From Bugula neritina (lineage: Eukaryota > Bryozoa > Gymnolaemata > Cheilostomatida > Bugulidae), in assembly GCA_964035545.1 (NCBI GenBank), contig CAXIUT010000101.1, positions 1-38,200 on the forward strand: DNA of 38,200 bases, given 5' to 3'. Under the pieces are notes generated by a model. The model worked only from the letters and a program-made list of their open reading frames with translations. It was not told the origin of the DNA and did not search any database. How positions within the stretch are numbered: position 1 is the stretch's first letter; every line of letters begins with the position of its first letter. Of this stretch, positions 7,099 through 37,500 are shown in pieces. The translations under genes and the position numbers were made by a program.

Positions 7099-8227
7099 AT
7101 GAGTTAAATAATCGCAAACGTCTTCCGCAATATTTCACAAGAAGAATTAGACATAGCCATTCAATGTGGAATTCTTTTAGGTTCTGCTTCCTCTATCTTC
7201 TACATCTTCTTCGGAAGACTTCTCTCAATACCTGAACTACTCGGCATCTCTCTAAAAGAACCTACCTGTAATCATCCAATAATTCAGCTCCAGGAAGTCG
7301 CAACTCACTCATAGTCATCTCAGGATTCCTCTTCCTCTCAGCCATTCTCAGAACCTTCTATCACTAACATATTTCAGCTTATTATCCCTTCGATGGGGAA
7401 GTATACCTCAAAAAAATATCTACTTTGAGACTGATAATTTCAGGAGGACTAGTGGGACTTGGTTCCCAAATGGCAATAGGAGGTCGCTAGAATAGTGGAG
7501 TAATGGGAGTACCAAGATTTTCAATAGCATCATTAGCATCATTTATAACACTATTCGGATCAGCGATGTTGACAGTTACATATAAAATAGGATAAAAACT
7601 ACCAAAAACACCAAGAATAATATAAATAGCCAACAAATCACTACCTTAGAACATCTCCTTTGACGCCTATCTCTTGGTTGGCCTTCTAACTCCATTCATC
7701 GCTTTCCTCATATCAACTCGTAAATCTCTCAAAGGAATGATCGAAAGTCTCACACATTTCGTAGTTGGTATCATCCTAGCATACTTTCTCATGCTTATGG
7801 GTTGGAGTCGCATCCAATAAACTTATGACTGCTTCAGCATCTCAAAAAAATGGACAGGATAGATGCTAGTCGCCTACGCCATCGCTACCGTCATCTTTGC
7901 ATTCGTATACGTGATAGTACGATATGGATTGTACTTCTACTTTAATTTAGTAAAAAACCATTGTTTAATAATGAACTACAAGACAAGGTGTCACCTCTCA
8001 CCTTTCGAGCTTTTGTTGGATATGCATTGACTGGAATAGGATTCGGATTGGGAGGGATGATCTTCTAATCATTTTTATTGACAATTCCATCCTCAGAAAT
8101 AAGAATAGTAGTTTTTTGGGGAGTACCCTGCATTTTTGCCATGAAAGCCACCCAAGTATTATCAACTGTATAAAAAATCTAAACACCAGTAGCTGAATAA
8201 AAAGCAACTTCAGCACTAAGTCTATGA
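7099..8227 (+). CDS. YeeE/YedE (sulphur transport) family membrane protein
   Basis: A 362-residue polytopic membrane protein encoded by three exons; introns are at 7268-7287 and 7931-7950 (20 nt each, GTA...CAG and GTA...TAG). About eight or nine hydrophobic segments form two related halves. SGVMGVPRFSIASLASF followed by GSAMLTV matches the bacterial YeeE/YedE signature HGVCGISRFSxRS...GMLTV, and ALTGIGFGLGGM opens the second half. Bacterial members import thiosulfate through conserved Cys residues. Here the signature Cys positions are Gly and Met, so the substrate and mechanism may differ. The spliced length is 1089 nt, exactly 363 codons. It converges on AcpS with 73 nt between stops. The family call rests on motif spacing from memory, not on a search. 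Confidence 0.78.
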
Positions 8228-8300
8228 TAGTTTATTGATTAACCATATTTTGATATAGTTGATAAACAAAAATACAAGAATATCTATTGAACATGAGAGA

Positions 8301-8696
8301 TCATTCTGGATATTGTTCTACTACTGCAGTAGCCAATGTGTATTATTTTTAGTGAGAAAGAGTGATATGCCATCTTGATATCTGCAACTCCAATATCAAT
8401 CTTTAATTTTCATCTCCCTACAATCTAGCATCAGGTTTGCCATCCTCGTTTTTCACTATTCGTATCTCATTGAAATGAAGCTACTTTCGACCTATTGCCT
8501 TGTTCAATGCCTACTTTACTGCCCATCTCGATGCCAAAAATTATACCTGCTGCTGCTGTAGTTCAAGACTATTCAAAGTAATGACTTATGAAGGATGCAA
8601 AAACTTTTTATAAAAACGATCTGAATATGTCTGAGCAAGATGCTGTTTGATTCTAGAGTTGCTAACAAGGTCGATTCCTATTCCTAATATTTTCAT
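8301..8696 (-). CDS. acpS: Holo-[acyl-carrier-protein] synthase, AcpS type
   Basis: Transfers 4'-phosphopantetheine from CoA to the serine of acyl carrier protein, probably in the mitochondrion. It has 131 residues, the normal bacterial AcpS length. ILGIGIDLV holds the metal-binding Asp9; SRWAVKEALNKAIG holds Glu62, the second metal ligand, encoded by UAG at 8511-8513; ITLSHQKQYTLATAVVE is the C-terminal SH...A.A.V motif. Reading UAG as Gln would destroy the metal site, so this gene strongly supports UAR = Glu. No presequence precedes MKILGIG. The start codon lies only 40 nt from the telomeric tract at 8737, so promoter and 5' UTR fit in 40 nt. Confidence 0.92.
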
Positions 8697-8736
8697 TATA
8701 ATTATGACTCAATTTCATATTTATCATAAACATAAT

Positions 8737-8817
8737 GGGGTTGGGGTTGGGGTTGGGGTTGGGGTTGGGGTTGGGGTTGGGGTTGGGGTTGGGGTTGGGG
8801 TTGGGGTTGGGGTTGGG
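8737..8817 (+). repeat. Internal perfect G4T2 telomere tract (13.5 repeats)
   Basis: GGGGTT repeated 13 times plus a terminal GGG, without error. The orientation is that of a right-hand chromosome end for the sequence on its left, where AcpS starts 40 nt away. On its right, sequence begins directly inside a nitrilase gene with no C4A2 tract. It ends TTGGG, as does the true right end of the window. Best read as the former right telomere of segment A joined to the broken left end of segment B. Confidence 0.97.
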
Positions 8818-9639
8818 CTGCTTTGTCAAATCCAACCCGTCTACAAACAAAAAGGATAGACTATTGAAAGAATCAAAGTGTCATTGTCGAAGTATAGTTC
8901 AAAAGATAATTTGGATATTATTGTTTTTCCTGAGATGGCTTTTGGAGGCTATCATTTCTAAAATCAAGAAGATGTCAGCTAAATTGCTATATAAATGGGT
9001 AAAGGCATTGATTTCTAGTTTGGTTTTTAACTTGCTAGCAAATTAAAATGCTATGTTGCTTTTGGTTATGTTGAAATAACTAAAAATGGATAATAAAATA
9101 TATTTTATAACTCAGCTGTTGTCATTGATCGAGAGGGAAAGATCGTATGCAACTATAGAAAGTGTCATCTATATTATAATGATAAATTATGGGCTACATA
9201 AGGTTAATAATTCAAAACTTTTACCTTAAAAACATAATAAAATAAAGAACTAACGTGTACACTCGCTTTAAGTAGCGATATAAGTCAAAAAAACTTTACT
9301 TCTGGAATTTATTAGCTATCTAACTATCTAGTATAAACAAAAAGTGATGTATTACTCTTGTTGTCTTGTTGGTCAGATAGTTAAAAAGATGAACTTCACC
9401 GTAATGACATTTCTGGAACCTATAACTATTGGATAAGCAGATTAAATCCTGTAACTCTAAGCAAGAGGACTCTATTGATGCTGTTTGCGGATAGAGTTGG
9501 TTTGTAGTATGATTATTTTTCAAAGAAAAAGACAATATTTTATGGTTCATCCTGCAGCATGATGCTAAATCCTCATAAAATACTAAGCAACCTAGATATA
9601 GATAAAGAAGGTTACTTACTATTATAGACCTTTTTATGA
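8818..9639 (+). CDS. Nitrilase-family N-terminal-amidase-like protein, 5' truncated, catalytic Cys replaced
   Basis: Carbon-nitrogen hydrolase fold closest to yeast Nta1 (deamidates N-terminal Asn/Gln). 273 residues are visible, single exon, ending at UGA 9637. CQIQPVYKQKGETIERIK matches the first strand and helix of Nta1 (VIQLNPQ...TIKR), so only a handful of N-terminal codons plus the ATG are missing at the tract. FPEMAFGGYHF carries the catalytic Glu and NYRKCHLY the catalytic Lys. The nucleophile motif GICxD reads ALSSD, with Ser encoded at 9271-9273. This product may be inactive or have changed chemistry. The frame is open leftward through the G4T2 tract (Gly-Val repeats) to an ATG at 8647; I regard that as accidental. 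Confidence 0.85.
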
Positions 9640-9665
9640 TTATCAATAAATTATTTAGATAGACA

Positions 9666-10472
9666 TCAATTATTTTATGGATTAGTAGTTTGACCTTTAT
9701 TTAACATTGACTTCTTAGATTATAAAAATTTAACCCACTTATCATGTTTTTGTTTATGCAGCTAAATTGCCAGTTTATCTGAAAATTATTTTTGGTTTTT
9801 AGTTGTTCGATATCGTGATTCCTTCTATATTGTCTTATCTTACTATCCATGAGTCTTTTAATGATTTTTTCGTCGTTTTAAATGAGAAACTATCGGAGGA
9901 ATTCTCAATTACTACTTTCTACTGTCTTGTTCCTTTTAATTTCTTAGTTAGTTTTTAATTTAGCTGCTATTTATTGAAGTAATCGGCTCTATCTTTTGTA
10001 AATATTTATTTTTAATTTACGATATATAGTGATTTAATTTCTATTGAGAGGATTGCTTTTTCATTCCATCTTTGCTCTTCTTGTGAAGGTTTGATGATGA
10101 TTGCTTGCTTATCATATCTCGTTACATAGTTGATAGTTATTTTTAGTACACCAATGTTTTAGGACATATATAGTCTGTATATTTTTACTTCAGTCGCACA
10201 GACAACAGTTTCTTTACTTTCTTTTTTTATTTCTAATTAGGTTCATCTATTATTGCTTTTTTGTATCTTTTAAGATGGTCTCTCACTGTCCTAGTTGAAA
10301 AGTAATAAGATGCATAAGGGTCACTTAAAGCTTAGTAGTTTTTGTGTTTTTCTGAGATACTGTATCTCGTTGAAAAGCCTTCTTCTCTTAGATGTACATT
10401 GAAGTGGCTATTAGGATGCTGATATTTATTTTTTACCTTTTTGCTCATATTTTCTATAAAATCCAAGTCCAT
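9666..10472 (-). CDS. Basic hypothetical protein, 268 residues
   Basis: Single-exon frame starting MDLDFIENMSKKVKNKYQHP. The N-terminal part has a distinctive ordered-looking block (HFNVHLREEGFSTRYSISEK, then DPYASYYFSTRTVRDHLKRY). The rest is Lys/Glu/Ser-rich with coiled-coil character and no hydrophobic segment. The N-terminal block resembles short motifs in ciliary and axonemal proteins only in general character. No family recognised. It converges with the nitrilase gene (26 nt between stops) and diverges from the pterin dehydratase gene (130 nt shared upstream). Confidence 0.7.
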
Positions 10473-10602
10473 TTAATTTTATTTTAGTATTATTAAGTTA
10501 AAAAAAGGAAAAATCACTAAAGATCTAATATTATATTTTGATTCCTGTGAATAATAAGATATTAAGAGAAGATAATATTAGCCTGTATTAATTCCAGATA
10601 TA

Positions 10603-11010
10603 ATGTCAAAAGAACTATTCAAAGTAGCAAACGTAGGTTCAATAAAGCGTCTTCTTCAAAACTACACAGGAAAGCCTCTTTCAACTTTCTAAGCATTCCC
10701 CCAATCATACACAATAAACAAATTACCAAAAGATAACTGGGCACAAATATAATTCCAATATTCTGACTTCAAATAGGCATTGGCCAGGTTGACTCTTATA
10801 GCAAATTCATGTAGTCAACTAAACTACTATCCTGAAATATTTAACGTATACAACAAGATCATTATCAAATTGTATAGTCATGGAGATAAAACAGATAAAA
10901 TACTCACAGTTAAAGATTTATATATCTGCCATTTTCTATAACAATTGCAATCTAAAACTGTCGAAGAATCACATCGTATGGCTTTGAAAAATTTGCAAGC
11001 AATTGATTGA
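10603..11010 (+). CDS. Pterin-4a-carbinolamine dehydratase-like protein, active-site His lost
   Basis: 135 residues, single exon. The PCD/DCoH fold is recognisable from WAQIEFQYSDFKEALARLTL to LNYYPEIFNVYNKIIIKLYS and ending DLYICHFLEQ (family: FNEAFGFMTRVAL ... [20 protein letters not shown] ... ASFIEQ). Active enzymes recycle tetrahydrobiopterin and use the two His of HHP plus a later His. Here HHP is YYP (codons 10825-10830) and the following Trp is Ile, while the later His (LYSH) is kept. The enzyme is probably inactive, or it is a structural relative like the DCoH dimerisation cofactor. UAA in FLEQ and UAG in FKEA fall on family Glu positions. Confidence 0.82.
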
Positions 11011-11210
11011 AAAAATATCTTATTGGCTTATTTTATTTAAAATTTGTATTTATTTTTGAGTTTTGTTGATAATGATGGTTAGAATAGTTTAGTTTGGGGT
11101 ATAAAGATAAATATGTTGTTATTTTGTAGAGTGGATAAAGAAGTGATGTTAGTTAGTTATAGTTTAATTTAATTCAAACAAAAGATTGTTAGTTAATTTA
11201 ATATACTATC

Positions 11211-11891: not shown

Positions 11892-11937
11892 AGTGATTTA
11901 GGTTATTCAATATTATATTACATCATAACATACTTAA

Positions 11938-12865: not shown

Positions 12866-13268
12866 ATGTCACTATTCACCGAATAATGGAGAAAAGAAGG
12901 TACTCCAATCTTCACAAAGCATACTATCCACGAAACGCTCTTCACCTTAGAGACTTCCCTGAAAACCATATCAAGCGATGTAAAGAAGTTCCTTTTGAAT
13001 TCCACGAATACAAAGTACATTTAATAACATTAAGACTAACAACAAGTTCCCTTGCCTGCCATACGAAAGAACTTTGATCCAATGTCTAAATAACTACGGA
13101 GTTCAGGGTTCATATCAAGTGCCTGAATGTTATCAAATGGCTGAATACTTCAACGAATGCCTAAAAATCAATAAATATTTCGGTCTTCTCAAGAAATGGA
13201 ATCCCGAACACTTTGCAGAAAATGAATATAGTAGAGAAAGAAACAACCTTTCAGACATCGGCTTATGA
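12866..13268 (+). CDS. Twin CX9C protein (mitochondrial intermembrane-space type)
   Basis: Three exons; introns 12900-12919 (GTACTCCAATCTTCACAAAG) and 13015-13034 (GTACATTTAATAACATTAAG), each 20 nt. The spliced frame is 363 nt, 120 residues, starting MSLFTEEWRKEAYYPRNALH. Cys50 and Cys60 (CLPYERTLIQC) and Cys75 and Cys85 (CYQMAEYFNEC) form two CX9C pairs 14 residues apart. That is the coiled-coil-helix-coiled-coil-helix layout of proteins oxidised by Mia40 in the intermembrane space, for example accessory subunits of complexes I and IV. There is no presequence, as usual for this class. The exact orthologue is not recognised. The stop lies 62 nt before the telomeric tract. Confidence 0.8.
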
Positions 13269-13330: not shown

Positions 13331-13405
13331 GGGGTTGGGGTTGGGGTTGGGGTTGGGGTTGGGGTTGGGGTTGGGGTTGGGGTTGGGGTTGGGGTTGGGG
13401 TTGGG
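13331..13405 (+). repeat. Internal perfect G4T2 telomere tract (12.5 repeats)
   Basis: Error-free GGGGTT units ending in GGG. It lies 62 nt after the last stop codon of segment B, a plausible right chromosome end. To its right, sequence starts at once within the 3' part of the MPP gene with no C4A2 telomere, so that gene loses its C-terminus. Same phase (ends TTGGG) as all other tracts here. Confidence 0.97.
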
Positions 13406-14742
13406 TCAAAGTATTGTTTAAAGCTTCAAGAACTTGAGAAGCATTTGTGTTGTCTATTTGAGAAGTGATGTCTTAGTTAGTTTGTCCGAAATAGTAAAGA
13501 GCTTTGGTTCTTTCTTCTAATCTTTTAGCTGAAGAGACGTAGCTTCTGTTGATTCTTCCTTTCAAAGATTGTTTAGCAAGTTCAATATCAGCTCCTGAGA
13601 CCTATCTAAGGATAGATAGTTAATTAGCTGCTACACTAAGGATTTCTTTTGCCTGAATGATTTAAATAGTACATGTGAGGCTGATCCTGATAATTTGAGT
13701 CCGAAAAGACCAGTATCAGAATAGTTGATGTTGAGAGCTTGAGCGCTATCAACAAAGACATGTTTATTGAGGATATTTTTTTGAAGTCTTCCCATTCTTC
13801 TGTTATTTCCAAGGATTTATTCTGCAATCATAAGAGGAATAGATGATCTGTAGCTAGCTCCTTCAAATGCCAAAACTAAATGGATATTATTTGCTTCACT
13901 AAGATTTCTAACTTAACCTCCAGCATATTTAGCTCCCTATCTTTCAACAGCTGAGCTATTAAGGATCGAAGAGCTAAGTTTTTCGTTCACAACATCTACG
14001 AATTCTTCGTGACTTTCAACTCCAGCTGCAGAAATAACGATTCTTCCTGGAGTGAGAGTAGATGCTTGGAATTTTTGGATAATATTAGCTATTAAATTGT
14101 TAACGTTACTTCTGGTTCCTTGGATTGGGTTTCCAAGATTTCTTTTTCCAAAAGCAGCTTGATGAATATGATCATGGAAAACCTAGTTGTTTCCTAGGAA
14201 AGCTTCTAGTTTATGAGTGTTAGCATTTTTATACATACCAACACTGGTTGATACAAAGTTTTTAGGTTAGAGGGCACTATCTGCAACCATTGAGAAGACA
14301 TCAACGACATCATGTGCAAGACAGTGAGCTCTATAGTAGCTATTTTCTCTATTATATTCCATTTAGAATTATCCTCCTGACATTTGAGTAATACCATAGT
14401 TGACAGTTTCACTTGTATTAATGGCAGTTTTGAGATATGTATTTTTAAGTGAGAGCATAGATCCACTGGTTTAGGGAGTTTCGTCTCTACTGCCAACATC
14501 AACAAAGATACCCATGTGGACATTGGATGGAACAGTGACTGATTCTGTGAGGACAGTGATTCCGTTGTTGAGTTGTGTCGATTTATATTCTACAGGTTGA
14601 GGGTCAAAGGTTTTAGCTTCTGTGCTAAGAGGTGAATGAATCGATGATCGGATGAGTCCTTAGTTACTGGATGAGTAGATATGTACGTTTTGGATCCAAA
14701 AATGGAGAAAAAGAATTTGGACTGTGAGATGATTTTATTCAT
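13406..14742 (-). CDS. Mitochondrial processing peptidase alpha-like (M16B) protein, 3' truncated
   Basis: Three exons; introns 13653-13672 and 14667-14686 (20 nt). 432 residues are visible. The N-terminus MNKIISQSKFFFSIFGSK is a typical mitochondrial presequence. QLNNGITVLTESV...GIFVDVGSRDETPETSG is the M16 N-domain start, and the usual HxxEH zinc site is replaced by MLSLKN, as expected for alpha-MPP or complex III core 2 rather than the catalytic beta subunit. Further blocks: HQAAFGKRNLGNPIQG, RIVISAAGVESHEEFVD, YAGGEVRNLSEANNIHLVLA and SGADIELAKQSLKGRI. It stops at the G4T2 tract after EALNNTLT, about 40-60 residues short of the family end. It diverges from the coiled-coil gene at 14911. 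Confidence 0.88.
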
Positions 14743-16408: not shown

Positions 16409-16965
16409 TCATGAACCTGCATTCTAGCAGTTATTGCACTTGCAATATTCATTACATGGCATCCCTTGACTATAACATTCGCAATATTTCTTCTGACAAC
16501 CTGTTTTTTTACAATTACAACCCTTAGCGATCGAAGAAGTTTTATAACCGAAAGCCATTGATGTTTTTGTTATCATCTCATCTATTGCCTTTGCTCGGAT
16601 CTCACTGAATTCTTGAGTATTCTGGCAGCCATCGCAGTTACATCCTTTGCAAAAATGTCCTAGCTAAGTTGAAAGATACCTTTAGCAAAACACTAGCAAT
16701 AAAGCTTTAAACATTTTGACTTCTTACAGTTGCATTTGATTGGACTTTGTGGAGTTGTGTCCTAGCTAGATTGTGATTTTTTGTGGTTTCGAGGTATTTT
16801 GTGATTCTTTTCTGAATAAAGAGTGTTGTAGATGTAGCCCAGGATCTGAGTAGAAGAGTGGGAAGGAGGTTGTTCTTGAGTGGGAAGAAGGGAAGATGGG
16901 TCTGAAGTTCTTTCTCTGGACTCAAATGTCATTTTCAGTAGGAATTCTGTTAATTCTGTCTCCAT
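16409..16965 (-). CDS. CXC-domain (tesmin/TSO1, LIN54-like) DNA-binding protein
   Basis: 178 residues in two exons; intron 16660-16679 (GTATCTTTCAACTTAGCTAG). Two Cys-rich CXC motifs form a CRC domain: [20 protein letters not shown]...FCKGCNCDGC, then the linker EFSEIRAKAI...FGYK, then KGCNCKKTGCQKKYCECYSQ...CNEYCKCNNC. In TSO1/tesmin/LIN54 this domain binds TTYGAA-type promoter elements in cell-cycle regulation; the role here is inferred from the family. The Glu of YCECFA is the UAG at 16693-16695, an invariant Glu. The protein ends five residues after the second CXC and is much shorter than LIN54. The N-terminal 65 residues are Ser/Pro-rich. Confidence 0.92.
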
Positions 16966-18701: not shown

Positions 18702-19387
18702 ATGTACTAACCTACCTCAACCCAAGAACGACAACACAAAGATTTCTTCTACCCTGTAGAAACAATGGGTACCACTATCATGGCTATCAAGTATGATGGA
18801 GGAGTTATCGCCTGTGCAGATTCAAGTATCTTATTTCCTATCAAGGAACTTCAGCAGGAGGAACATACACTGTCGATCGAGTTGCTGATAAGATCGATTA
18901 CGTCCATGAACACATTGTTGCTCTAAGAAGCGGACTTGCTGGACAGTCTCAACAGGCAGTTCACAAAGTTAGATTTTTGATTGATTCTCATGTAAACGAA
19001 CAAAACAAGCTGCCTCATGTAAAAACAGCAGCAAGAATGCTTCAAAAGGCTAACTATGAAAAAGGACTATAAACTGGATATATCATTGCTGGCTGGGATC
19101 CTTATTGTGGAGGACAAGTCTACAGTGTCAATTTGGGAGGAGCTACATTGCTCAGAAACTATGTCCTAGGAGGTTCAGGTAGTGGTTTTATTTATGGCTA
19201 TGTTGATGCAAACTACAAAGAAGGCATGAGTTTCGAAGAGGCCAAAAATTTCTGCCTTCATTGTGTTTCTCTAGCCATGAAAAGAGATGGTTCTTCAGGA
19301 GGTATTATCAGATTGTCAAATATTACTGAAAAGGGACTAGAAAAGGAATATCACACATATGAAAGTTTACCTTACAAATCAACCTGA
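18702..19387 (+). CDS. PSMB6: 20S proteasome subunit beta type-6 (beta1, caspase-like)
   Basis: 221 residues, two exons; intron 18826-18845 (GTATCTTATTTCCTATCAAG), the clearest of the 20-nt introns because it interrupts the invariant ADSRTS motif. A 23-residue propeptide ends in Gly, then catalytic Thr24 in GTTIMAIKYDGGVIACADSR. Further matches: GLAGQSQQAV, YIIAGWDPYCGGQVYSVNLG, GGSGSGFIYGYVDANYKEGM and AMKRDGSSGGIIRLSNI. All are characteristic of beta1/PSMB6 (PBA1 in plants). The active-site Thr and Lys are retained, so it should be proteolytically active. Spliced length 666 nt, exactly 222 codons. Confidence 0.96.
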
Positions 19388-19412: not shown

Positions 19413-20327
19413 TCAAGAAATAAAAATATCAGCTTTTCTTTCATCTTAATCAATTCCATCTACTGAATGTCCTCTACTATTTCCTCTGTTAAGTCCTCGA
19501 GAAGCTTCATAGAAAGAGTGGTATTTCTTTTTTGCCTATTCATATTAATCTTGACATTTTAGTCTGAATTTTTCAGAAACACTGAGTCTTTATAGAAGAA
19601 CTCTTTCTTTTTCTTAGAGATCACCAATCATCATTTCTTGTCTTTATCTTTATCTAAGTTATTATTTTAGTTTTTGCTATTTAAATTGTTTGAATTGTTG
19701 TAATTTATCAAGAAAATAAAGTTTTCTTTTTTAATGAGCTTATATATGATCCATTCTTATTTTATTTGCTTTTTAAGCATTTTCTTATCGTAAATTTTAT
19801 CTCTGAACCTGATTTAAAACCTAAAGTTGCTGAATATTTTAAAAATTACAGTTAGTTTTTCTTTAAAATTTTTTGATTCTTATTCCATTTTATGATTCAT
19901 AAGAGTAACTACTATTTTTTTGTTATATTTTAGATGATCTTTTATCAACTTGTTAAATTATGCCTTTCTAACTTGATTTTCTTCAGCTTTTTTCCTTTAC
20001 TATATTATCGAAGATCTACTTAGACAGACATATCTTTATGTTATTTAGCCTTTATTTTTACTGCTTCAAGAGAAGTAAGTTTTCTTTTAACATTTAATAC
20101 CTTTTTAACTGTCTTTTCCTATTTCGTTTTCATAAAATTTATTCTTGCTTGAACTGCCTAAATCATTCAATAATTACTTGAATAGCATTTTAAGTATCTT
20201 TATTTCTTAATTTTAGCTCTCTTAAACTGATATGATCGAGTCCATCTGCTTCTCTTGGATATTTTTGGGTCGATTCTTCATTTAGAGGACTCTAAAGACC
20301 TGATGCAGTAGGTTCTGGATGGTTCAT
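19413..20327 (-). CDS. Coiled-coil protein with three 20-nt introns, 284 residues
   Basis: Four exons; introns at 19830-19849, 20000-20019 and 20158-20177, each GTA...AG and 20 nt. Spliced length is 855 nt, 284 residues plus stop. It starts MNHPEPTASGLESPLNEEST, then is nearly all Lys/Glu/Arg-rich long helix (ENAIQAVQARINFMKTKEEK; KQFKEQKLKEELRERERQEM). The tail has YHSFYEASRGLNRGNSRGHS. No recognised domain; in style it resembles ciliary or basal-body coiled-coil proteins. It shows how badly single-frame ORF calling fails in this genome: each of three introns shifts frame. It converges with the proteasome gene (25 nt apart). Confidence 0.8.
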
Positions 20328-20514: not shown

Positions 20515-20986
20515 ATGTTTAAAGCAGCAAACAACGTCAAAAATCTAGTCTTATCTAACAGATTCTTCTTCTCCAAAGATCTTTTTATCAACGGAAGCAA
20601 TCCTATCAGAGAAAGAGTCATGTCTACTCCATCCTGGCCAGTACCATACTACCAAAGAGTCGTCAAAGCCTATCCTATTAGATGTATTTCCTTATCTATT
20701 CAGAATAAAGCAAGCCGAACCTCGGAGGAGCTGACACTCCTGCTGGTGATGTAACATGGCTCTTTGCCAAATAATTGTTGAACGAATCAGCTAAAGGACG
20801 ACAGATAGTATCCTATACTGAACAAAATATCCAAACAGAAAGTAAAGATGATAGTATAAAGCCTTTTTGATAAAAAAAGATGACTGCGAGACCATGGCTA
20901 AAGCTTATGTGAACGATATCTGTCAATTTTTAGACATAACAAACAAATAAAACTCAAAGATTTTAAAAGGAAAGACTTTGATTTGA
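20515..20986 (+). CDS. Hypothetical protein with probable mitochondrial presequence, 143 residues
   Basis: Three exons; introns 20684-20703 (GTATTTCCTTATCTATTCAG) and 20842-20861 (GTAAAGATGATAGTATAAAG). The spliced frame is 432 nt. The start MFKAANNVKNLVLSNRFFFS is basic, hydroxylated and lacks acidic residues, like a mitochondrial targeting signal. The mature part is globular-looking (VPYYQRVVKAYPIREESKPN; DTPAGDVTWLFAKELLNESA; DDCETMAKAYVNDICQFLDI) and matches no family that I know. With OSCP and a membrane protein close by, a respiratory-chain accessory subunit is possible but unproven. Confidence 0.72.
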
Positions 20987-21043: not shown

Positions 21044-21623
21044 TCAGTGATGACTCTTGTGCTTGAGAGATTCTTTGTAATAATCCAACATCTTTCTATC
21101 TTCTTCAGTCGCGATAGCATCTAGACCAGTCTGATAGTCTTCATATGAATCGACTGTTCCTTCGTATCCAATGTATGAGAAAGTTCTATTCAAGGCTTTT
21201 TCTGATGCAATGAAAGTCATAAAATTTTAAATTGATGTATTTGGTCTAGAAACAACGTTAAATCTGTTATACCAGAGGTCTTCTCTCGCCTTTTTATCAC
21301 TTTGATCATCTTCTAATTTTTTCTTTTATGCTGTAGCTGCAGCTTGCTCTTTTTTCTTTTCTCCTGAATACCAAAGGTAGGAATTGACTGAGAAGATAAA
21401 GATAAAAAATAAAGATCCTCTGAGCTGAGTATAAATATAGTTACGGGTCCTTAACTTCTGGCAGCTCTTGCGATATGATCGAAAAGGAATCCTGGTTGTT
21501 TAGCTTTCATCATTCCAAAGTCATCTTGATTGAATTTAAGGTTGCATTTTCTGAGTTGAATTAGAAGTACCTCCATAGTCTGATGGGATCATAGTTGGAT
21601 CTATCGACGTATTTATACCACAT
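21044..21623 (-). CDS. Single-pass membrane protein, 179 residues, unknown
   Basis: Three exons; introns 21425-21444 (GTAACTATATTTATACTCAG) and 21551-21570 (GTACTTCTAATTCAACTCAG). Spliced length 540 nt. It starts MWYKYVDRSNYDPIRLWRKC. One transmembrane helix (GSLFFIFIFSVNSYLWYSG) is followed by a charged Lys/Glu/Ala stretch and a conserved-looking C-terminal domain (NRFNVVSRPNTSIENFMTFI; YIGYEGTVDSYEDYQTGLDA). The layout is that of small accessory subunits of mitochondrial complexes, many of which are ciliate-specific. An alternative upstream ATG (near 21725) leads only to UGA, so this start is preferred. It diverges from OSCP. Confidence 0.72.
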
Positions 21624-21771: not shown

Positions 21772-22439
21772 ATGATTTTCAGAAGATTGATGATGCTACC
21801 TCGCTTCAACTTTGCTGAAACTATTCAGTCTATTGATGGTAATACCTATAAACATTCAGGACACAAACCTCCAGCATTCACTGATACTCCGTCAGGTAGA
21901 TATGCAGGATCTCTCTTTACAGCTGCCTCAAAAAGCTCAGCTTTGCAAACCGTTGCTGATGATATGATTCATCTTCAGAAAGTCCTCAAAAAATCTGTAG
22001 AATTTAGATAGGTTTTAAAAAATTCAGCAGTGAGAAAAAGCAAACAGAAATAAATCTTTGCACAATTTGCTCCGACCAACTATAGCCAAATAACTCTCAA
22101 TTTCATCGATACTCTTATAGACGGTGGAAGGTATAGTCATAATAACCTAGATTATCTGAACTCGAAAAAATCATCACAACTTACCTCAAATATTGCAAAA
22201 TTTTGAACAAAGAAGAAGATATCAGAGTCATCTCAGCTACAAGTTTGGCAGAAGGAGAAAGATCTCGAGTTCTCGAATCCTTGAAAAAGAATAAACCAGA
22301 TGTGAGATTTAAAGTTACTTATGAAGTTGATCCTAGTATCCTTGGAGGTCTACAGATCTTTGCAGGATCTTAATTCTTGGATTGTTCTCTCAGATCAAGA
22401 ATGGAAAGACTAAAATCAGAGTTGGGCAGAATAGCATGA
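21772..22439 (+). CDS. ATP5PO: F1Fo ATP synthase OSCP (delta) subunit
   Basis: Peripheral-stalk subunit linking F1 to the membrane arm in mitochondria. 215 residues, two exons; intron 22131-22150 (GTATAGTCATAATAACCTAG). A basic presequence (MIFRRLMMLPRFNFAETIQS) precedes PSGRYAGSLFTAASKSSALQ, matching the family's GRYA.ALF.AA. Then VADDMIHLQKVLKKSVEFRE, NFIDTLIDGGRLSELEKI and RVISATSLAEGERSRVLESL. The C-terminal domain is VRFKVTYEVDPSILGGLQIF, equivalent to the GG..I.VG.....DGS loop. The UAG in EFRE replaces a typical Glu. Spliced length 648 nt. Confidence 0.93.
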
Positions 22440-23396: not shown

Positions 23397-24511
23397 ATGG
23401 GAGGCATTACTGATGGATCTGAATCAAGTGCCCTTAAAAAGAAAGAATAGTTCCTTCAAAATCTAACTCTATACTAAGAGATCACTACTACACAATTTGG
23501 TGCTATCAAAATATGGAAACAAACCTAAAAACCATATCACTACTATATGCTATTTACCTAAAATGGAATAGATGATAGAAATACATTGATGAAAATGCAA
23601 TAAAAACTTGAATGGTATCGATCACTGAAATCTCATGGACACATCGTAGAGATAGAAAGTGTTCGATTAGTCTAAAGTATTATTTATGCTAAATAGAATC
23701 CGAAATGTGTATCAAGAAAATATCATTAGAAGTATATAGCCGCTATTACAACTATACTCTCTAGATGGCTGTAATGAGAAAGCTAAAAAGAAATAAACGA
23801 TTTAAATAGGCAGATATTTTTTATGTCCTTAAATGTTTACTTGATATTTGGAAACATCTCAACGAAACTGTACATAAATATATCGATCTCTTCAACATCA
23901 AAAATATCTTCTTAACGCCCTAGGGATTCATAAAAATGTACCCTTTTCCAATCGATATCGATTTCGTTAGCAGTCCTCTCCGTCCAAAATCTCAAATTAT
24001 CAACCGGTCGCTGCTTCACAATGAATAAATATCAATGGAATTCAGTCCAAAAAAATCATAACATACATAAACAGTATGCACGCCTACTAAATAAATAAGA
24101 CAACTAACCGAAAAAGATAATCTCAAAGATATTGGCCACATACTATTTCAATTAGTACTACTAAATAAAGAAGGAGATGAGATTCTTTAATTTTCAATAG
24201 AAAAACAATACCAACTACTCCAACAACTATAAAATCAACAATATATATCAAAATATCTCAAAGATATACTTTTTAACCTTCTGACTAATTACAAAGAAAT
24301 CACCTATGATGATATCATGAGAATGTTTTAGCTATACAGAGGAGATCTTAATCGACCAGTATCAACTAACATCAAATTAGAAGATGGACCATAGTTTATC
24401 GAACCAAAATAGATATAAAAAACATATAATTTAAGACGTTTATCAGAACATAAACATCTAAAAGCTGGAATGATCAGTATCCTATCAAAAAAAAGTAGTA
24501 AATAGAAATGA
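23397..24511 (+). CDS. Divergent protein-kinase-like protein lacking catalytic motifs (pseudokinase)
   Basis: 364 residues, two exons; intron 23771-23790 (GTAATGAGAAAGCTAAAAAG). FGAIKIWKQTEKPYHYYMLF resembles the VAIK strand; KLEWYRSLKSHGHIVEIESV the alphaC/beta4 region (HxxIV). EADIFYVLKCLLDIWKHLNE and HKYIDLFNIKNIFLTPEGFI sit where kinases have the alphaE helix and HRDxKxxNIL(L). The HRD Asp is absent and DFG is replaced by MYPFPI. DIGHILFQLVLL matches the alphaF D(W)SxGxxLxxL. The fold is therefore inferred as a kinase homologue without catalysis. The family call is from motif order only; a structure prediction would decide it. Confidence 0.65.
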
Positions 24512-24532: not shown

Positions 24533-25697
24533 TCAAAACCACATCTAGTTATCTGGATTCAATATCGATAGTCCTGCACTTGGAGAAGAACTAAATAGAT
24601 ATTTTTGGATTTGTGAGGGCATATGTCTAGTTATCAGGACTTAATGTTCTTGTTGATTTGATTTTTAGGCTATATAAGCATGGATCATTTTTGATAATTT
24701 AGCTATTACTTCAGCGTATCTGTATTTTTAAACGATAAAAAGACAATATCCTTCGATAAAGATGAATCCCTGTGTAAATAAGTAAATACTTGAAATTTAA
24801 ATTGTTGTTTTAAGTTTTGCATAAATGAAAGAATCTGTTTATCTTGATTTAGGTTGATTTGAATGGCTGAGATTTGGTTGATCAGATCTTCAATATTTAT
24901 TTTTTATGATTCAAAGTCGTTTATTAATTTATCATATTGCTCATTTTTGAAGAATTATGATGAATATTACTTCTATTCATTGATAAAATCTGGCGATAAG
25001 AAGATGAATTTGTACTTTTGGTTAAAAACAACAGATTTAGACTGTTAATTTGTTATTTTAATATAGTTGTGATGATAGTAGTTGAAATAATTTTAAACTA
25101 CTTGATTAAACTTGAATTGTTCGAAAGTTTTAAGTTTATTTATTAATTCTTCTCGACTATACTATTCTATTAAATTATTAATAACCATAATCGACATAAA
25201 AAGACTTACAAGAAAGCTTTTAACATTGTTTTACAGTGATATTGTATTATGGAAGTAAATATACATAAACCCACCTTTGATTTTATTTAAACTGAGATCA
25301 TCAACAGCTAAATCAATTGCTTTTTTCGCCAACAAAGATATTTCAGGCTAATTTTCTTGATTAATGATTTTACCTGAATTTTAAAGTACAATTTATTCTG
25401 AACAATTGCTTGAAATATTAAGTTTATCATCAGAAGTACCTCTAGCCAACAATATGATTGTTCCTTGCTCCATACCAAATGAAATAGATGATTTTGAACC
25501 TCTAGCTAACTCAACTATCTGTTTAGCAACAACATAATGAGTAGGACAATGTGCTAGATAAAAAAAGAAATACTTGGATAAGCTTTCTTGAATGCTTTTT
25601 TGATTTGAGATAAAAGAACAGAATGTTTAGAACATAGTTCATCTTCAATATCTGGGTAGACTGATGATAAACTTGATGTTATTTGAAAAGTATTCAT
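24533..25697 (-). CDS. Hypothetical protein, 374 residues
   Basis: Three exons; introns 24770-24789 (GTATTTACTTATTTACACAG) and 25554-25573 (GTATTTCTTTTTTTATCTAG). Spliced length 1125 nt. The N-terminal half is globular (VAKQIVELARGSKSSISFGM; GTIILLARGTSDDKLNISS; AIDLAVDDLSLNKIKGGFMY), then a hydrophobic stretch (SFLVSLFMSIMVINNLIEEY), a helical region, and a well-ordered C-terminus (AEVIAKLSKMIHAYIAEKSN; ITRHMPSQIQKYLFSSSPSA). It ends 21 nt from the convergent pseudokinase gene. No family recognised. Codon periodicity and exact splice arithmetic make it a real gene. Confidence 0.78.
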
Positions 25698-26727: not shown

Positions 26728-27947
26728 ATGTCACACGATAAGAAATCATACTAGAAACTGAATAGCTTCTCACAACCTCCATGTTGTACTCAAATCATCA
26801 GCTATATTGTTATAGTATTACTTAACATTGTTTTCTGGGTCTTCCTGCAAGAACATTTTTAAAATTAATCCACCAGATTCACAATGATCGTTCTATTTGC
26901 CATCTCTTTTGTAATTCTCATTCTTGTTGGCTTCATAACATCCTATCTAGACCCTTCAGATCCAATCATCAGATAATATCTATAGTCCAGCAGCAATATG
27001 TACCTATAATTCTTCTTCAGGTCTAAAAAAAATATCTAATAAAATCTATATTGCGATCACTGCTGCAGCTACGTCCTACCCACATCTCGTCACTGTAAAA
27101 AATGCGATAGGTATTCTTGTTTTAAAACAGATGTGTACACCAATTCGATCATCATTGCATATGGATCAATAACTGCATAGGATAAATCAATTATAGGTTT
27201 TTTATTGCCATGATTCTTTCTGCTTTTACTCATCTTTTTCTATATCTACTCACCTTGGTTCTCTTATGGAGCTAAAATACTTGGGAGGGATATCTTGGTG
27301 AAATGATAGCTGGATGGGTAGGAGGTTTAGTTGCTTTAATTTTTGTAGTATTGATCACAGGATTGATTATTTTGCATTTTTATCTTATTTCTCAAGGAAT
27401 AACTACTTTTTAGTATATTTTATCAAAGAAAACTCAAGTCGAAAGACAAAAATTCTAAAGAGTAGTTCCTGTAAAAAAGATATAAAAAGATGTATAACTA
27501 TAAAACAGATAACATGAAAGAGAAGTATAAAACTAAAAAACAGAAAATGGCATAAATCCTCCAATAAGTGCCTTTCAATAAGTCATAAATCATAGATCAC
27601 AAAAATCTGAATAAATATCAGGTCCTTCAGGTGAATTTTTAAATTAATCAAGAAGCAAACAAACAGCCAACTAAAAACCATTCTAAACAATAAATAACAT
27701 ATAAAGTGCAGCTGATTTATTATATGAATAATAAATGAAATAAGTATATAAAAAAAACAGAAGTTTAAAATTTTTAGTAGGCAATTCGATATCTGTAAAA
27801 TCACTAAAATCAAAAAGAAACAATTTCAGTGAAACCTTTTCCCATCACAAAGGTAAAAGTCAATAACTAAATCTAATAAAAGTTGAATATCTCAGTCATT
27901 AAAGCAACCCCATAGATGATGTAGAATAGTAACATCAAAAAAAATGA
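26728..27947 (+). CDS. DHHC palmitoyltransferase (protein S-acyltransferase)
   Basis: 399 residues, two exons; intron 27111-27130 (GTATTCTTGTTTTAAAACAG). Four transmembrane segments: two near residues 20-75 (YIVIVLLNIVFWVFL; MIVLFAISFVILILVGFI), then DPSDP, and two after the catalytic domain. The zinc-finger DHHC-CRD reads YCDHCCSYVLPTSRHCKKCD, then [20 protein letters not shown], then NYRFF, with Cys137 of DHHC as the acyl carrier. TTFE (219-222) is the TTxE motif and its Glu is the UAG at 27411-27413. The Glu of CIGEINYR is UAA 27183-27185. The C-terminal 170 residues are a polar cytosolic tail. Transfers palmitate to protein cysteines at endomembranes; targets unknown. Confidence 0.95.
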
Positions 27948-31589: not shown

Positions 31590-33072
31590 ATGATGGTTGA
31601 TTAGGCAGTAGCAGAAGTCATCCCTTCTCACAAAGAGATGTCAAAACCAATACTTGAAGAAGTATTTACAGTTACTCTTGACTCTGAAGTATTCGAAAAA
31701 GTCAAATGTGTCCTCTATGACAGATACATCCTCATCGATTGTAAAGTAAAATTTCCATAAAATAGAAAAATAAACATTAATTCCTTAAAATTAACTTTAA
31801 CTTTGATCTTATCTTTGAACTACAAAGAGAAGAAGGAGAGAATAAAAAGTTAGGAAAACCATTTGGAATAAAGTTTTAAAGATTCCAAAAATCCTTATCT
31901 TTGATCAAAGAAAATGGATAAAAAATGCTTTTAATCTGGAGAGATGCCTTAGCCAAAAAAATAAATCAAAGAGGTTTTCATTAATTATTTAAACCTATCA
32001 AGAAGATTGGAAAAGGTAACTTTGCTACAGTGTATCTGGTATACAAGTACTAAAATGGTCAAAAATCTGCTGTGAAAGCTTTTTCTAAAGAAGGAACCTT
32101 CAGTGAATAGTTTGGAAAAGAATCTCTAGTGAACTAAATAGAAATAATGAGAAAATTCTAACATAAAAATTTAATGAGACTAGAATAAATTTACTAATCT
32201 CAAAACTCAATTTATATTTCAGTACAACTGCTTGAAGGAGGACAACTTTATGACAAAATTAAGGCCAAACATAAATTCACTCCAAGAGAAATAAAGATAG
32301 CCATGAAAGGCATCCTTTAAGGCCTAGAAGTTATGCATGCAAATGACATTATGCATAGAGATTTAAAACCTGAGAATATTCTTCTGAGAAGTGAAGGAGA
32401 TTTTGATTGTGTTATTGCTGACTTTGGATTGGCTCAAAATACTAATGAGGATTATATGTTTGTCAGATGTGGAACACCAGGCTATGTAGCTCCAGAAGTA
32501 GTTAATCTCAAAGATTTGAAGGCCAAGTACAGTACTATCTGTGATCTCTTCAGTGTTGGAGTTATTTTCCATATGCTTGCCTTGAAAAAACCTCCATTCC
32601 CAGGAAAAGAATATGATGAAGTCCTATCTCAAAATAGACATTGCAACATTCACTTCTAAAATCCTATGTATCAAACTCTTCCATAAACTTGTACCTTTCT
32701 TTTTATTCAGGGCTCGATTTAATGAAAAAACTCCTCGAAAAAGATCCATTGAAAAGAATATCAGCAACTTAGGCTCTAAATCACGACTTTTTCTCAAAAG
32801 ATTAATTGTTCAAGGAATTTACTTAAATCAGAAAGAGTTCTTTCCTGGCCGGAGAGGAATGCAACTCTCCTTTGATGATATCCAAAAATGCTGAAAGAAA
32901 GAAGAAACAGCTATTACGTGATGATAGTTGCTTGAAGTTCAAGATGAAAGAGAATATATTGACTGGCAGAACTGACTAGAGTGCAGATATGATAGAATAG
33001 ATTGATTCCCCTGCAGCCATCAAGAAGAAAGTGGTGAAGGTTAATGAAAGTAGATTCAAACAAAAAAGCTGA
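31590..33072 (+). CDS. Serine/threonine protein kinase with N-terminal PH-like region
   Basis: 480 residues, three exons; introns 31746-31765 (GTAAAATTTCCATAAAATAG) and 32691-32710 (GTACCTTTCTTTTTATTCAG). Residues 1-125 alternate strands and end in a helix (ENGEKMLLIWRDALAKKINQ), like a PH domain. Kinase domain: KIGKGNFATVYLV (about 132), AVKAF, IMHRDLKPENILL (HRD about 249-251), ADFGLAQ (DFG 271-273), GTPGYVAPEV, RISATEALNHDFF. All catalytic residues are present. The Glu of the kinase subdomain XI motif RISAxEALNH is UAG 32770-32772. It resembles CAMK-type kinases; there is no EF-hand tail, but a basic C-terminus. The second intron splits the domain just before the WLDLMKKLLEKDP helix. Confidence 0.92.
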
Positions 33073-33104
33073 TTATTACTATTCGATTACATTAAGTATA
33101 TATA

Positions 33105-34421
33105 TCATATTTTCAACTTATCAAAAAGAAGTTTATCCACTATTTTTGAAGGATCTTTCCTCACTTGTTCCAAAATCTACTTTCTCTCCTTCTAAAACTC
33201 TTCCCTGCATTCTTCATCATCTGACTTTTCGACTTTTGATTCTGATTGTTTTAAAGATTTGTATTTTGATATTCCTGTCACAATATTTTTAAAGTTTTGC
33301 TTTAATTCAGGATTTGCTTAATTCTCTTTATTTTTCAGATAACGAGCATAACTCTCGGATTTTAGTTAATTTTAGTCAATAGTTTTATCCAAATTATTCA
33401 CCCAAATTTTATAATTGTTTTCTTAACTTGTCATTTTTTCATATTTGTAGTCAAGATCATTTTATTTTTAAATTTATACTTCCAAACTATCAAGTGATCT
33501 TGACCTTGTTTGGAAAAGATGTCCTGTTTCAAGGTTAATATGTTGATATCCTATTTATTGTACTTAATTTTAAAGAGAAGTAATATTTTTCTTTAATGGT
33601 TCGGCTGTTCTTCCAAAATAAGGAATAGCTCCCATTATTCTAGCTGTTTTGATAGCTTTTCTTGCTGCTTTTTGATCACCATGACTCAAAAAGTTACGAT
33701 ACTTGCTTTTTATATTGCCATTTATTGTCATAAATTGTCTAAGAAGTTCGATATTTCTCCAATGGATATCATATTTGTTAAGTTGTCTCAGATTTTGTTG
33801 TCTTTTCTAATATCGATCAAGAGGTTTGAAAAAATGTCTCAGTGGTTGATGAGGTTTTAATTAATCATATGCTTTTTGTACCGTAAAATTACTAGGACCA
33901 TCATAAGATTGAGGATTGAACTTTTCCTATCTTAAATCTTTGAGTTAGTAAAGCAAATCACCTCTACCTTTATTATCTTTAGCACCTTTTGTTCGAATTC
34001 TGGCCATAGAAGGATCACCTCCAATATCCTGTCTGAGAGCAATATCGATAACATTTTAAACAGTAAATCTATCATTGTTTTTAAGATAAATTTATCTCGC
34101 TTTATGATTTTTTTTCAAAAACTGGAAGAAGGGATCTAATTTAAGTGGTATTCCTTTCTACCTCAATCATAAAATACTTGTGATTTAGATAATAATATCT
34201 ATTATCTTGACAATCCTGTTTCTTATAACTCGTTCATCTTTTTTGTAATTTCTATATTGATCTTCATCCAACAAATAATACTTTAGTTTTTTATTGAGGA
34301 GTGATATCTTTGGTGATTCCCAGTGGAGGTTTAACAAGTGCTAAAAATCTATATCTTCATAGATATACTTTTATTTATTGAGAGGTTTTGTTGTTGAGAA
34401 CAACCTAATAAATCTCATCAT
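33105..34421 (-). CDS. MRPS18: Mitochondrial ribosomal protein bS18m, extended
   Basis: 418 residues, four exons; introns 34158-34177, 34262-34281 and 34349-34368, each 20 nt. The presequence is MMRFIRLFSTTKPLNKEKFL. The S18 core (about residues 205-280) reads KYDIHWRNIELLRQFMTING, then NIKSKYRNFLSHGDQKAARK, then AIKTARIMGAIPYFGRT. It matches bS18 (IDYKNVELL..F.....KI..R..T......Q..L..AIK.AR..ALLP). Long N- and C-terminal extensions of unknown role make it about five times bacterial S18, as is common in ciliate mitoribosomes. Spliced length 1257 nt. The start is 57 nt from the telomeric tract at 34479. Confidence 0.87.
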
Positions 34422-34478
34422 ATTTATATTATTTAACTATGCACATCAAAAGAGATAATTGAACGAATCGATATTTAT

Positions 34479-34547
34479 GGGGTTGGGGTTGGGGTTGGGG
34501 TTGGGGTTGGGGTTGGGGTTGGGGTTGGGGTTGGGGTTGGGGTTGGG
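34479..34547 (+). repeat. Internal perfect G4T2 telomere tract (11.5 repeats)
   Basis: Error-free GGGGTT units, ending GGG. It is 57 nt upstream of the bS18m start codon, so it fits the right end of segment C. To its right, sequence begins inside the 3' coding part of ELP1 with no left telomere. Same terminal phase as the other tracts. Confidence 0.97.
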
Positions 34548-37500
34548 AGCGAATGATTTTACTCTGTATGTGTTGAATACCTCAATATATTCTCGAACTT
34601 CGTTGCGAAGAGTCTAGGCCTAGTCGATCAGATTGACATAGATCAAATGCTGGATCAATAACTTTGCATCCTCTGAATATCAACATTATTACTGACTGCG
34701 TTCTAAACTTTGTCTTCCAACATTTTGAGGTAAGCAAGAAGATACTACTCTTCAAGCGGTGACCCTTCTTTGACATTTCTATTGAGAATAGATCTCTTTT
34801 TATCTTTCTTTTTACGAAGTCCAGTTGTAGTTGACATAGTGTAGTTGCTTTGAGATTTACTTGTGACTGATACCTAACTGTACATATCATCATTTTATCT
34901 TGCTTTGAATGTTGAACTTTAACCGAGGTCTATTTTACTGCTATGAACCTTTTTAAGTCTCTGGTATTTATCAAGAAAATCTTTTCTATCAAAAATGATA
35001 TCATTTTTTTTGAGACTGAAACATAGTTGGAATGCTTCTTTTACTTCTTTGTTTTTGAATTCTTAGCTAACTCTAGGCAAATACTTAAATGCTTTTTTGT
35101 ATTAATTTTGTTTCAAAAATATCAAAATAGCTTCTTCATACTGTCCAACATAGACATACAATTTAGCCAAATCAATTCTATTCTTAATTTATTCTTTAGT
35201 TTCCTCAATAACCTCCAAAACTATTTTATTTCTCTACTATTGTGAATCATATAAGATCTCCAAACACTATTTGATCTTTTTAGTATCCATAGAACTTCTA
35301 GCAATTTCAAGCGCTCTTTGATATAATCCAATAGACTGACATATCCTGTAAGCCTAGTTGACATCTCCACTACTGAATAACTAATCAATAATAAACTATT
35401 TAACTTTGATGAGTTATTATTTTTAGTTGTAGATAACTAATCCATGTTTATAAAGTTTATGTCTTTTTATCAAAACCAATGATTACTATTTTTGCTATCT
35501 ATTGCCCATAGACAGTTCTTTAATCGCTATTTAATATTTTTTAAGATCATTGCATATTTTAGCTCTAAAATCAACCTGATCTTTAATCTATTTTAAACTC
35601 TAGAAATATGGAATATACTCTTTTGGATCCTAAATATCAAATAACATACCTTTTGAGTGCATCGAGCTGTAATAGCCGCCAACTATAAATCATAAGTCAA
35701 CAATGATGCTTCATAGATGGTATTGGGGTCAACTAACCAGCAAATGTATTATAAAATTTGTTGAGCAGACAATTTATTTTTTTGTTTTTTTTGTTATTTA
35801 ACCAAATGAGGAGGCACAACAACTTACACCTAATTTTGTTTCATTTCCTTAATCTAAAAAAGAACACTATTCAACTTGCCCTCTTTAATCTAACTAGTAA
35901 AAATAGATAAAATATACATCTATTTATTGATATTTCTCAAAGTTTCAGCCACAAGTCGACAAATCCTCTTAATTTTACTATCTTTCTTAACCTACAACTA
36001 ACCCACCATATCATCATACTTCTTCATAGGGATAATATACTGCAACTAAGATGATATGTTTTATTTGATATGGGCGATAAACAAATTGATATAATCTGTT
36101 CGTTTTATATCGAGCAAGATGTTTTCAATATCATTTGTAAATTGCTAAGGATTTATATCACACAGTAAGTTGAAATCTAATTTATGGGTTCTTATTATTT
36201 AGAATATCTGTCTGTATTTTTTTTATAACATAAGATTGCTTAATTTGTTTATTGCTATCACTTTTGGATAGATTGCTTAGAAGTTGCCTCGGGGGAGTTG
36301 AAAGACCACCCTTCCTGAAGATATTGTCACTATTTGGGAACCTCTTTCAATCAAACGATGGTTCAATTTTTATTTAGTTTATAATTCAACCAATTTGCTT
36401 TTGATATTTGTCTCTTCTTTATAAATCCAATCATCCAAAATCAAATCGACTACGAACAACTTGTCATACATTTGACTTGTACTCAAAGTAAACACCAAAA
36501 AGTTACGATATAAAATCAAAGAAGAACACTATGAACTAATTGTATTATTATTTATTATCAGTTATTCATTCTAATATACGATCTATAGTTGTTAGTATTC
36601 AGGCATTTTGTAAGTATACTTCAAAGGAAGATGTTTGTAGATTCCATCATCATGAAGACACCCATCTCTTTTGGAATAGATTTTATTATTGACAGTAAAA
36701 TCAATACTATCATTGGTTAGTAATTTAAGAGAAGCCATTCTTTGTCCTTTGAGTTATGCTAATTAACAACTATCAACTATTTTTTGCTATTTGAAATTAT
36801 AAAGAATAATTTATTGTTCAGTCACTACAAGCAAATTGTATTTCTTTTTAGAAACAGCCAAAACATTATTGTTAAATACAGCTTTGAACATACTCATAGG
36901 AGGAGGCATCAAACAATGATTCAAATCGGTTATATTTATTACATTTCCATCAATAAAATAAAAAAATTAATTCACATACTACTTCTACTATTGCTATAAT
37001 TTCCATTCCTTCTCAGGCAACCGAGTTACCAACTCCAATATCTATAATTTATCTTTATGAGTTATTATCAATTGATTTTTTTGTTTCTGACCGATCAATG
37101 GCTAATATAAATTGTCTTTACTCAGAGAAATAACATGTTTAAGATACCAATGATAATTAGAACGATAATAAAGCATTAGTTAGTGTTTGCTATTGTTAAT
37201 AACTTTTAAATAAAGAATCGATGAATCTGTACTCCAATTCATTTGACTAATTTCTTACACTGACGAAGGAAGGTTAAATTCCAAATGTCTCAATCCATTC
37301 TTTTCCCAAAATATAACTCTCATCAACTTCTTACCATCCTTAATGATATAATCAGATCCAGCAACAATGCTACCAGATGGCTGCCAAGCAACCAACCCGC
37401 TCATCTTCATCCTTCCCTTCTCGCTAACAGATTGAACCAGTCCATCTTCAGTAGGATCGCTTTTCGATGGACTTATCATATTATTCATCATGATATCTTT

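Follow-up and report, generated by a model that had tools for sequence, protein, structure and literature searches.

Intron length in the window

Are the introns of this DNA locked to a single length, and if so, around what internal geometry and in what organism? The question is raised by a 38,200-nucleotide (nt) stretch (the window; contig C99:1-38200 of the 215.8-Mb, 295-contig Bugula neritina assembly), for which the initial annotation had described 27 introns in 15 genes between positions 7268 and 35649, all exactly 20 nt long. These were recovered in the same numbers, including three in bS18m; the examples quoted from PSMB6, OSCP, DHHC and ELP1, and the first intron at 7268, are all 20-mers of the form GTA...AG. 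Two further 20-nt introns lie beyond that range, at 3379-3398 and 38006-38025, giving a catalogue of 29 introns in 16 genes in which every intron is 20 nt long with GTA...AG ends (29/29) and every spliced frame is free of internal stops (16/16). Intron phases 0, 1 and 2 are represented 11, 11 and 7 times. Since 20 = 3n+2, retention shifts the frame every time, as had been stated, and retention of any one of the 29 introns leads to a TGA, at a median distance of 34 codons (range 4-233). The claim that every intron is exactly 20 nt long holds for the window catalogue and fails genome-wide, where one well-supported 22-nt intron was found. The dominance of 20 nt is real but not absolute, and the grounds for saying so follow.

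Length tests that do not presuppose 20 nt

GTA...AG pairs were tallied at each spacing from 10 to 60, and spacing 20 was compared with the other 50. In the window 86 pairs occur at spacing 20 against a mean of 56.0 (standard deviation, SD, 8.4), an excess of 30, while plain GT...AG shows no significant excess there (210 vs 188.5, SD 16). The remaining tests used a 237-kb set comprising the window and 20 loci from six other contigs. In this set the pattern GTA-N11-A-NNN-AG, with its adenine at -6, occurs 217 times at 20 nt against a mean of 134.3 (SD 16.0), the highest count of the 51 spacings, and the corresponding GTA-N-A-NNN-AG pattern shows no excess at 18, 19, 21, 22 or 23 nt.

A hidden Markov model (HMM) was also applied that uses six-frame codon statistics on both strands, TGA as sole stop and a flat intron-length prior from 10 to 80 nt, requiring of an intron only GT and AG. 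Of its 145 GT-AG introns 62 are 20 nt long, the next commonest length having 9 calls, and a GTA start is present in 61 of these 62 as against 30 of the 83 calls of other lengths. When five control boundary pairs matched in composition were allowed to compete, 24 of 48 GT-AG calls fell at 20 nt, and none of the five control pairs had such a peak within the ten commonest lengths. Allowing lengths up to 400 nt gave 67 of 160 calls at 20 nt (next length, 9) and no second class. A stricter version with a heavy intron penalty returned almost no introns, and the penalty was then relaxed; a separate run favored the pattern with adenine at position 15 (the A15-aware HMM).

Introns resolved by homology

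Around 18 introns in eight genes, every GT-AG pair of 8-99 nt was scored against solved relatives, each intron being varied while the remaining introns of its gene were held fixed. A single best choice emerged for 15 of the 18 (14 at 20 nt, one at 22 nt), with three ties. The IDH intron, for which 20 nt is the best of 37 choices, adds one resolved case; an MPP intron found best of 29 in a separate scoring is the same as one of the 15. The total of uniquely resolved introns is thus 16, with 15 at 20 nt and one at 22 nt, and all 16 begin with GTA and carry an adenine at -6. Five of those at 20 nt (NMT 6795, RBBP4 8870, IDH and two in bS18m) came to light only in the A15-aware search and are absent from the flat-prior HMM list, on which the other ten of the 15 are present; neither these five nor the 29-intron catalogue constitutes independent evidence for the adenine at position 15. 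An 11-nt HMM intron in NMT (locus L014, 6777) was discarded, having scored below the 20-nt intron at 6795.

A fixed adenine and the inner geometry

The initial annotation had proposed looking for a fixed branch-point adenine, and this search was successful: position 15 holds an adenine in 68 of the 69 20-nt introns of the flat-prior HMM set, in whose selection that position played no part, and the only exception is one of the two introns without GTA. In the same set column 16 is a pyrimidine in 56/69, column 13 is T in 41/69, and G accounts for 6% of columns 4-14. The branch-point consensus is yUnAy, and with T at 13 and a pyrimidine at 16 the setting of A15 resembles it. A15 is therefore inferred to be the branch point, lying 14 nt from the 5' splice site and followed by NNNAG. 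The segments thus have the GT and AG ends, the restored frame and the adenine in a yUnAy-like context of GT-AG spliceosomal introns; they share with heterotrich introns a fixed A followed by NNNAG, and not the heterotrich length of 15-16 nt.

Read-through in metagenome relatives

Genes of relatives in public protein sets stop at such introns in both MPP and IDH. These relatives are metagenome proteins, not DNA, and the IDH entries that run off carry no usable organism name. In the first 70 of the 120 MPP relatives listed, out of 185 detected, 22 run on with V directly after this ciliate's junction. The seventh residue is R in 20 of these 22, as predicted for exact read-through of 20 nt (GTN ... 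AG|G). In all 20 the fifth position holds L, P, I or S, each of which can be encoded by a codon ending in A15 (NNA). Among the 200 relatives listed for IDH, where scoring was limited to 8000 candidates, 172 keep the frame through the junction and the other 28 run off exactly there. All 28 run-offs begin with G followed by an ANN-codon residue, matching GTA, and 21 fit 20 nt, with K, Q or E as seventh residue in 20 of them and one ending after six (NAG/TAG). The codon starting at nt 15 (residue 6) specifies an ANN residue in all 21, which comprise 13 distinct read-through peptides. One MPP fragment, P0010, is 79% identical to this ciliate's protein and filed under a Bdellovibrionales metagenome-assembled genome, an assignment that probably reflects contamination.

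Source organism and genetic code

The 5' end of the window consists of C4A2/C3A2 repeats and its 3' end of (G4T2)nGGG; with telomere-type repeats at both ends, the window probably represents a complete contig of ciliate chromosomes that were sequenced together with the animal host. In the window and the 20 other loci the longest frames are much longer if TAA and TAG count as sense. To assign the codons, spliced MPP and IDH were aligned with 61 and 120 relatives, respectively, and residues were recorded for each codon column. E predominates in 16 of 19 TAA columns, and in all seven TAA columns with at least 80% of one residue that residue is E. At TAG columns E is the majority in six of eight and K in two, the sole column with at least 80% uniformity being E; Q occupies 12 of 15 CAA columns. 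UGA is thus read as stop and UAA/UAG as Glu, the code of Peritrichia. An earlier reading of UAA/UAG as Gln (table 6), taken from one PSMB6 column, was overturned by these columns; the choice between Gln and Glu has no effect on exon-intron structure because UGA is the sole stop in both codes. According to the accessible portion of the source, UAR=Glu had a single origin among sampled ciliates, in Peritrichia (PMC10553269). The attribution to a peritrich, already made in the initial annotation, is therefore well supported on the strength of the two genes' codon columns.

Searches elsewhere gave one bacterial match at 27% identity in GTDB contigs and none in IMG/VR, which are weak negatives, the query having been hand-edited. 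For a profilin-like protein, solved structures yielded no match.

Splicing factors

A search for losses among spliceosome components had also been suggested; Isy1, the one factor readable here, is present with its N-terminus intact. It was found on contig C35, assigned to the same ciliate by in-frame UAR codons (18 in Isy1) and a G4T2-type tract in the locus, and it starts with MARNCEKA and aligns with ISY1 of 6ff7 from residue 1. The Isy1 N-terminus of Stentor is described as strikingly non-conserved, and steric avoidance has been proposed (PMC9505925, in the part available); a non-conserved N-terminus of that type is not found here, and loss of the conserved form thus seems not to be required for introns of 20 nt. 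Matches to Cir_N (Cwc25) are confined to two large contigs, C2 and C4.

Comparison with known short introns

The comparisons that follow draw on the accessible portions of the papers cited. Introns of Stentor coeruleus are 15-16 nt long, GU-AG with GUA, and U-rich, with a branch adenine near-invariant at position 10 of 15 (90.9%; PMC9505925), and those of Blepharisma are likewise 15-16 nt (PMC9942806). Heterotrichs thus share with this ciliate the GUA start and the A-NNN-AG end, and the arrangement from branch to 3' end is the same as in the 15-nt introns of Stentor. However, the introns here are 20 nt and not 15, the distance from 5' site to branch being 14 and not 9, a 5' arm longer by 5 nt; furthermore, this ciliate has the Glu code (peritrichs belong to Oligohymenophorea) and keeps the Isy1 N-terminus that is reported to be non-conserved in Stentor. 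In Mikrocytos mackini 217 of 224 introns are 16 bp and seven are 17 bp, with conserved sequence (PMC10245619); mikrocytids are alike in having one locked length but differ in that length (16 vs 20 nt) and in being reduced-genome intracellular parasites within Rhizaria. Chlorarachniophyte nucleomorph introns (18-23 nt, GT-AG), of which 20 nt make up 35.8% in Lotharella vacuolata (PMC4494063, PMC4035089), belong to a relict endosymbiont nucleus and show a spread of lengths, as against one length here.

Among other ciliates, a conserved A near the 3' end, taken as branch point, is described for Euplotes vannus, E. aediculatus, O. trifallax and Fabrea salina (PMC10946202, PMC13344042), so this feature is not in itself new among ciliates, but the portions available give no single locked length for Euplotes, Oxytricha or Fabrea. 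Tiny introns also occur in Paramecium (~25 nt) and Nyctotherus (21-29 nt), with non-3n lengths favored or 3n introns bearing stops (PMC12862383, PMC2633312, PMC5014332), but their length varies, and for Nyctotherus the accessible text reports no branch-point motif found. Introns of Loxodes magnus (mean 19.3, mode 17 bp, 3n depleted; PMC11441545) have a broader length distribution, in another class with another code. The initial annotation knew of no fixed 20-nt class in a peritrich; consistent with this, a literature search, with partly accessible sources and thin coverage of subscription journals, found no earlier report of peritrich intron length. Peritrichs with public genomes include Vorticella, Carchesium, Zoothamnium and Epistylis (PMC9960496). 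The present introns are an independent new case of ultra-short, length-locked introns, with a length of their own and the 3' geometry of Stentor, in a lineage surrounded by ciliates whose introns are longer.

Proposed explanation and its alternatives

The introns are very probably ordinary U2-type introns, in a peritrich ciliate with splicing substrates locked to one geometry: GUA, a branch adenine at position 15, three nucleotides, and AG. In such a system the spliceosome would pair the two splice sites across the intron, and it would tolerate little beyond a spacing of 14 nt from 5' site to branch and 5 nt from branch to 3' end, and selection or deletion bias may have pushed introns to that optimum. 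The frame-breaking length could in addition serve as a simple mark of unspliced mRNA, because UAA/UAG encode Glu and UGA is the sole stop. The steric coupling of splice sites and branch point suggested in the initial annotation is likewise a conclusion drawn from sequence.

Several results weigh against this explanation or limit it. In the 237-kb set GTA...AG alone is only weakly enriched at spacing 20 (435 vs 370, SD 31; third-highest spacing). HMM support for single introns is small, with only six calls at 20 nt and five others among 148 reaching 5 nats; it is the aggregate, together with homology, that carries the claim. The eight test genes were chosen among genes with at least one 20-nt call, and 15/16 may for that reason overstate the share of 20 nt. 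The 22-nt intron (locus L020, 8686-8707, in an RBBP4-like gene) outscores 17 other GT-AG choices by 23 units; it retains A-NNN-AG with its A at 17, and its 5' arm is thus longer. In the relatives, two of the 22 MPP read-throughs do not fit 20 nt, and by hand reading five IDH run-offs fit 22 nt (P0244, P0264, P0265, P0267 and P0272, with four distinct peptides), P0246 fits 28 nt, and P0288 fits no clear length. A V-ATPase subunit a-like gene (identified by eye; L009, 8823-8860) changes frame with no A15-pattern 20-mer nearby. Finally, among the best candidates scored, U2 (six matches) and U6 (two) all lie on the very large contigs C2, C3 and C8, which are probably the host's.

That the 20-mers were produced by hunting for frame-restoring GT...AG stretches is very improbable. 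GT and AG are indeed common in AT-rich DNA, plain GT...AG lacks a significant excess in the window, GTA...AG is not clearly enriched in the larger set, and single HMM calls are weak; such a selection, however, does not account for the excess of about 30 GTA...AG pairs in the window, for a flat-prior peak at 20 that none of five control pairs reproduces, for A15 in 68/69, for 20 nt as best choice in 15/16 resolved introns, or for the read-throughs of the relatives. A more serious alternative, still unlikely, is a narrow length distribution with its mode at 20, as in Loxodes or nucleomorphs, in which case the uniformity of the window would be partly luck. The L020 intron, the 22- and 28-nt hand readings in IDH relatives, and HMM calls at 19, 21 and 22 nt (plausible but unproven) all point that way, but 15 of the 16 resolved introns are 20 nt long and the pattern has no excess at the neighboring lengths. 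Taken together, the relatives suggest that the 20-nt length is common to a clade and yet not invariant within it.

Ciliates also excise short DNA segments, and Paramecium internal eliminated sequences peak at 26-28 bp (PMC9942806, in part). That the 20-mers are such sequences, cut from DNA and not introns, is nonetheless hardly credible given the GTA...AG ends and the fixed inner A in its yUnAy-like setting; moreover, they lie in a telomere-bearing contig, such as would be expected of macronuclear DNA already freed of eliminated sequences. Sequencing or assembly errors are the least likely source of the frame changes. Unexplained frame breaks do exist, in an SmD3-like gene near 1575 and in the L009 V-ATPase gene, but errors would not yield 20-mers with GTA, A15 and AG, nor would they break the frame of 20 MPP and 21 IDH relatives at those very same two junctions.

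Beyond the locked geometry itself, a more tentative proposal, which falls somewhat short of being probable, is that a peritrich-type clade independently evolved a spliceosome that measures introns like a two-part ruler (a 5' arm of 14 nt up to the branch A, then the A-NNN-AG end), in which the 3' geometry would be a hard catalytic limit and the 5' arm would be tuned by lineage (9 in Stentor, 14 here, 16 in the rare variant). If this were true, the Isy1 N-terminus would be lost only below a threshold of 5'-arm length. Few lineages with length-locked introns are known, and a case with another length and the same branch-to-3' geometry separates two spliceosomal distances, making it testable which of them is hard-wired and how strictly splicing gauges its substrates. 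A practical consequence for annotation is the rule GTA-N11-A-NNN-AG; peritrich genes annotated without it appear frameshifted.

Intron positions and other features of the window

The names PSMB6, OSCP, MPP, bS18m, DHHC, kinase, CXC, NMT, RBBP4, Grx5, DUSP and IDH rest on alignment, Pfam or solved relatives, while ELP1, nitrilase, SmD3, V-ATPase, profilin and the remaining labels were given by eye or taken from the initial annotation. Homology fixes several introns directly. On the forward strand, the PSMB6 (proteasome beta) intron at 18826-18845 is the best of 33 GT-AG choices and is confirmed by alignment, and that of OSCP (ATP synthase) at 22131-22150 is the best of four, the product being gap-free against OSCP of 6yny across the junction. 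Intron 2 of the M16/MPP-type peptidase gene (13653-13672, reverse) is the best of 29 and of 22 choices and occurs also in metagenome relatives; intron 1, N-terminal in the same gene (14667-14686, reverse), has a flat-prior HMM call and an open frame, with its ends unfixed in a four-way homology tie. The three introns of bS18m (reverse) follow the A15 pattern: intron 3 at 34158-34177 (best of 18 choices; aligned to S18 of 6z1p), intron 2 at 34262-34281 (best of 17) and intron 1 at 34349-34368 (open frame; ends unfixed in a six-way tie). They replace a 72-nt HMM intron on the basis of homology scoring and the S18 alignment. Two forward-strand introns with flat-prior HMM calls lie within domains whose Pfam matches extend across the junction, namely the DHHC domain of gene 26728-27947 (27111-27130) and the Pkinase domain of gene 31590-33072 (intron 2, 32691-32710).

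Flat-prior HMM calls with open spliced frames place, on the forward strand, both introns of the membrane-protein gene 7099-8227 (7268-7287 and 7931-7950), the intron of gene 23397-24511 (23677-23696) and kinase intron 1 (31746-31765), and on the reverse strand introns 3 and 2 of the coiled-coil gene 19413-20327 (19830-19849 and 20000-20019), intron 1 of gene 21044-21623 (21551-21570) and intron 2 of gene 24533-25697 (24770-24789). The flat-prior call in the coiled-coil gene 1902-3979 (3379-3398, forward) has GTA and A15. Calls obtained both with and without the control pairs, again with open frames, are intron 2 of gene 12866-13268 (13015-13034, forward), intron 1 of gene 20515-20986 (20684-20703, forward), intron 1 of the coiled-coil gene 19413-20327 (20158-20177, reverse), intron 1 of gene 24533-25697 (25554-25573, reverse) and intron 2 of ELP1, a gene label taken from the initial annotation (35630-35649, reverse). 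The A15-aware HMM supplied, with open frames, the intron of the tesmin/CXC gene 16409-16965, which encodes a CXC domain (16660-16679, reverse), intron 2 of gene 20515-20986 (20842-20861, forward), intron 2 of gene 21044-21623 (21425-21444, reverse) and ELP1 intron 1 (38006-38025, reverse). Less certain is intron 1 of gene 12866-13268 (12900-12919, forward), which follows the A15 pattern and leaves an open spliced frame and is not an HMM call. For ELP1 intron 3 (34673-34692, reverse) the HMM gave 22 nt; 20 nt was preferred, the frame then being open to the gene's cut end.

The second half of the SmD3-like gene (by eye; 1323-1707, reverse) lies in another frame near 1575, with no A15-pattern 20-mer there, possibly owing to a sequencing error. 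On contigs C40 and C258 (loci L022, L023, L025 and L026) the number of 20-nt introns per coding kb is 0.05 and 0.18, compared with 0.72 in C99, which could reflect gene content or a second ciliate. Telomere tracts also occur within the window (8737-8817, 13331-13405 and 34479-34547, in addition to 38114-38200), each ending in ...TTGGG like the contig end, and inner tracts on other contigs are found in both orientations. To the right of the inner tracts of the window, genes appear cut open (a nitrilase-like gene, identified by eye, MPP and ELP1), and these tracts probably mark places where minichromosome ends were chimerically joined to broken fragments.

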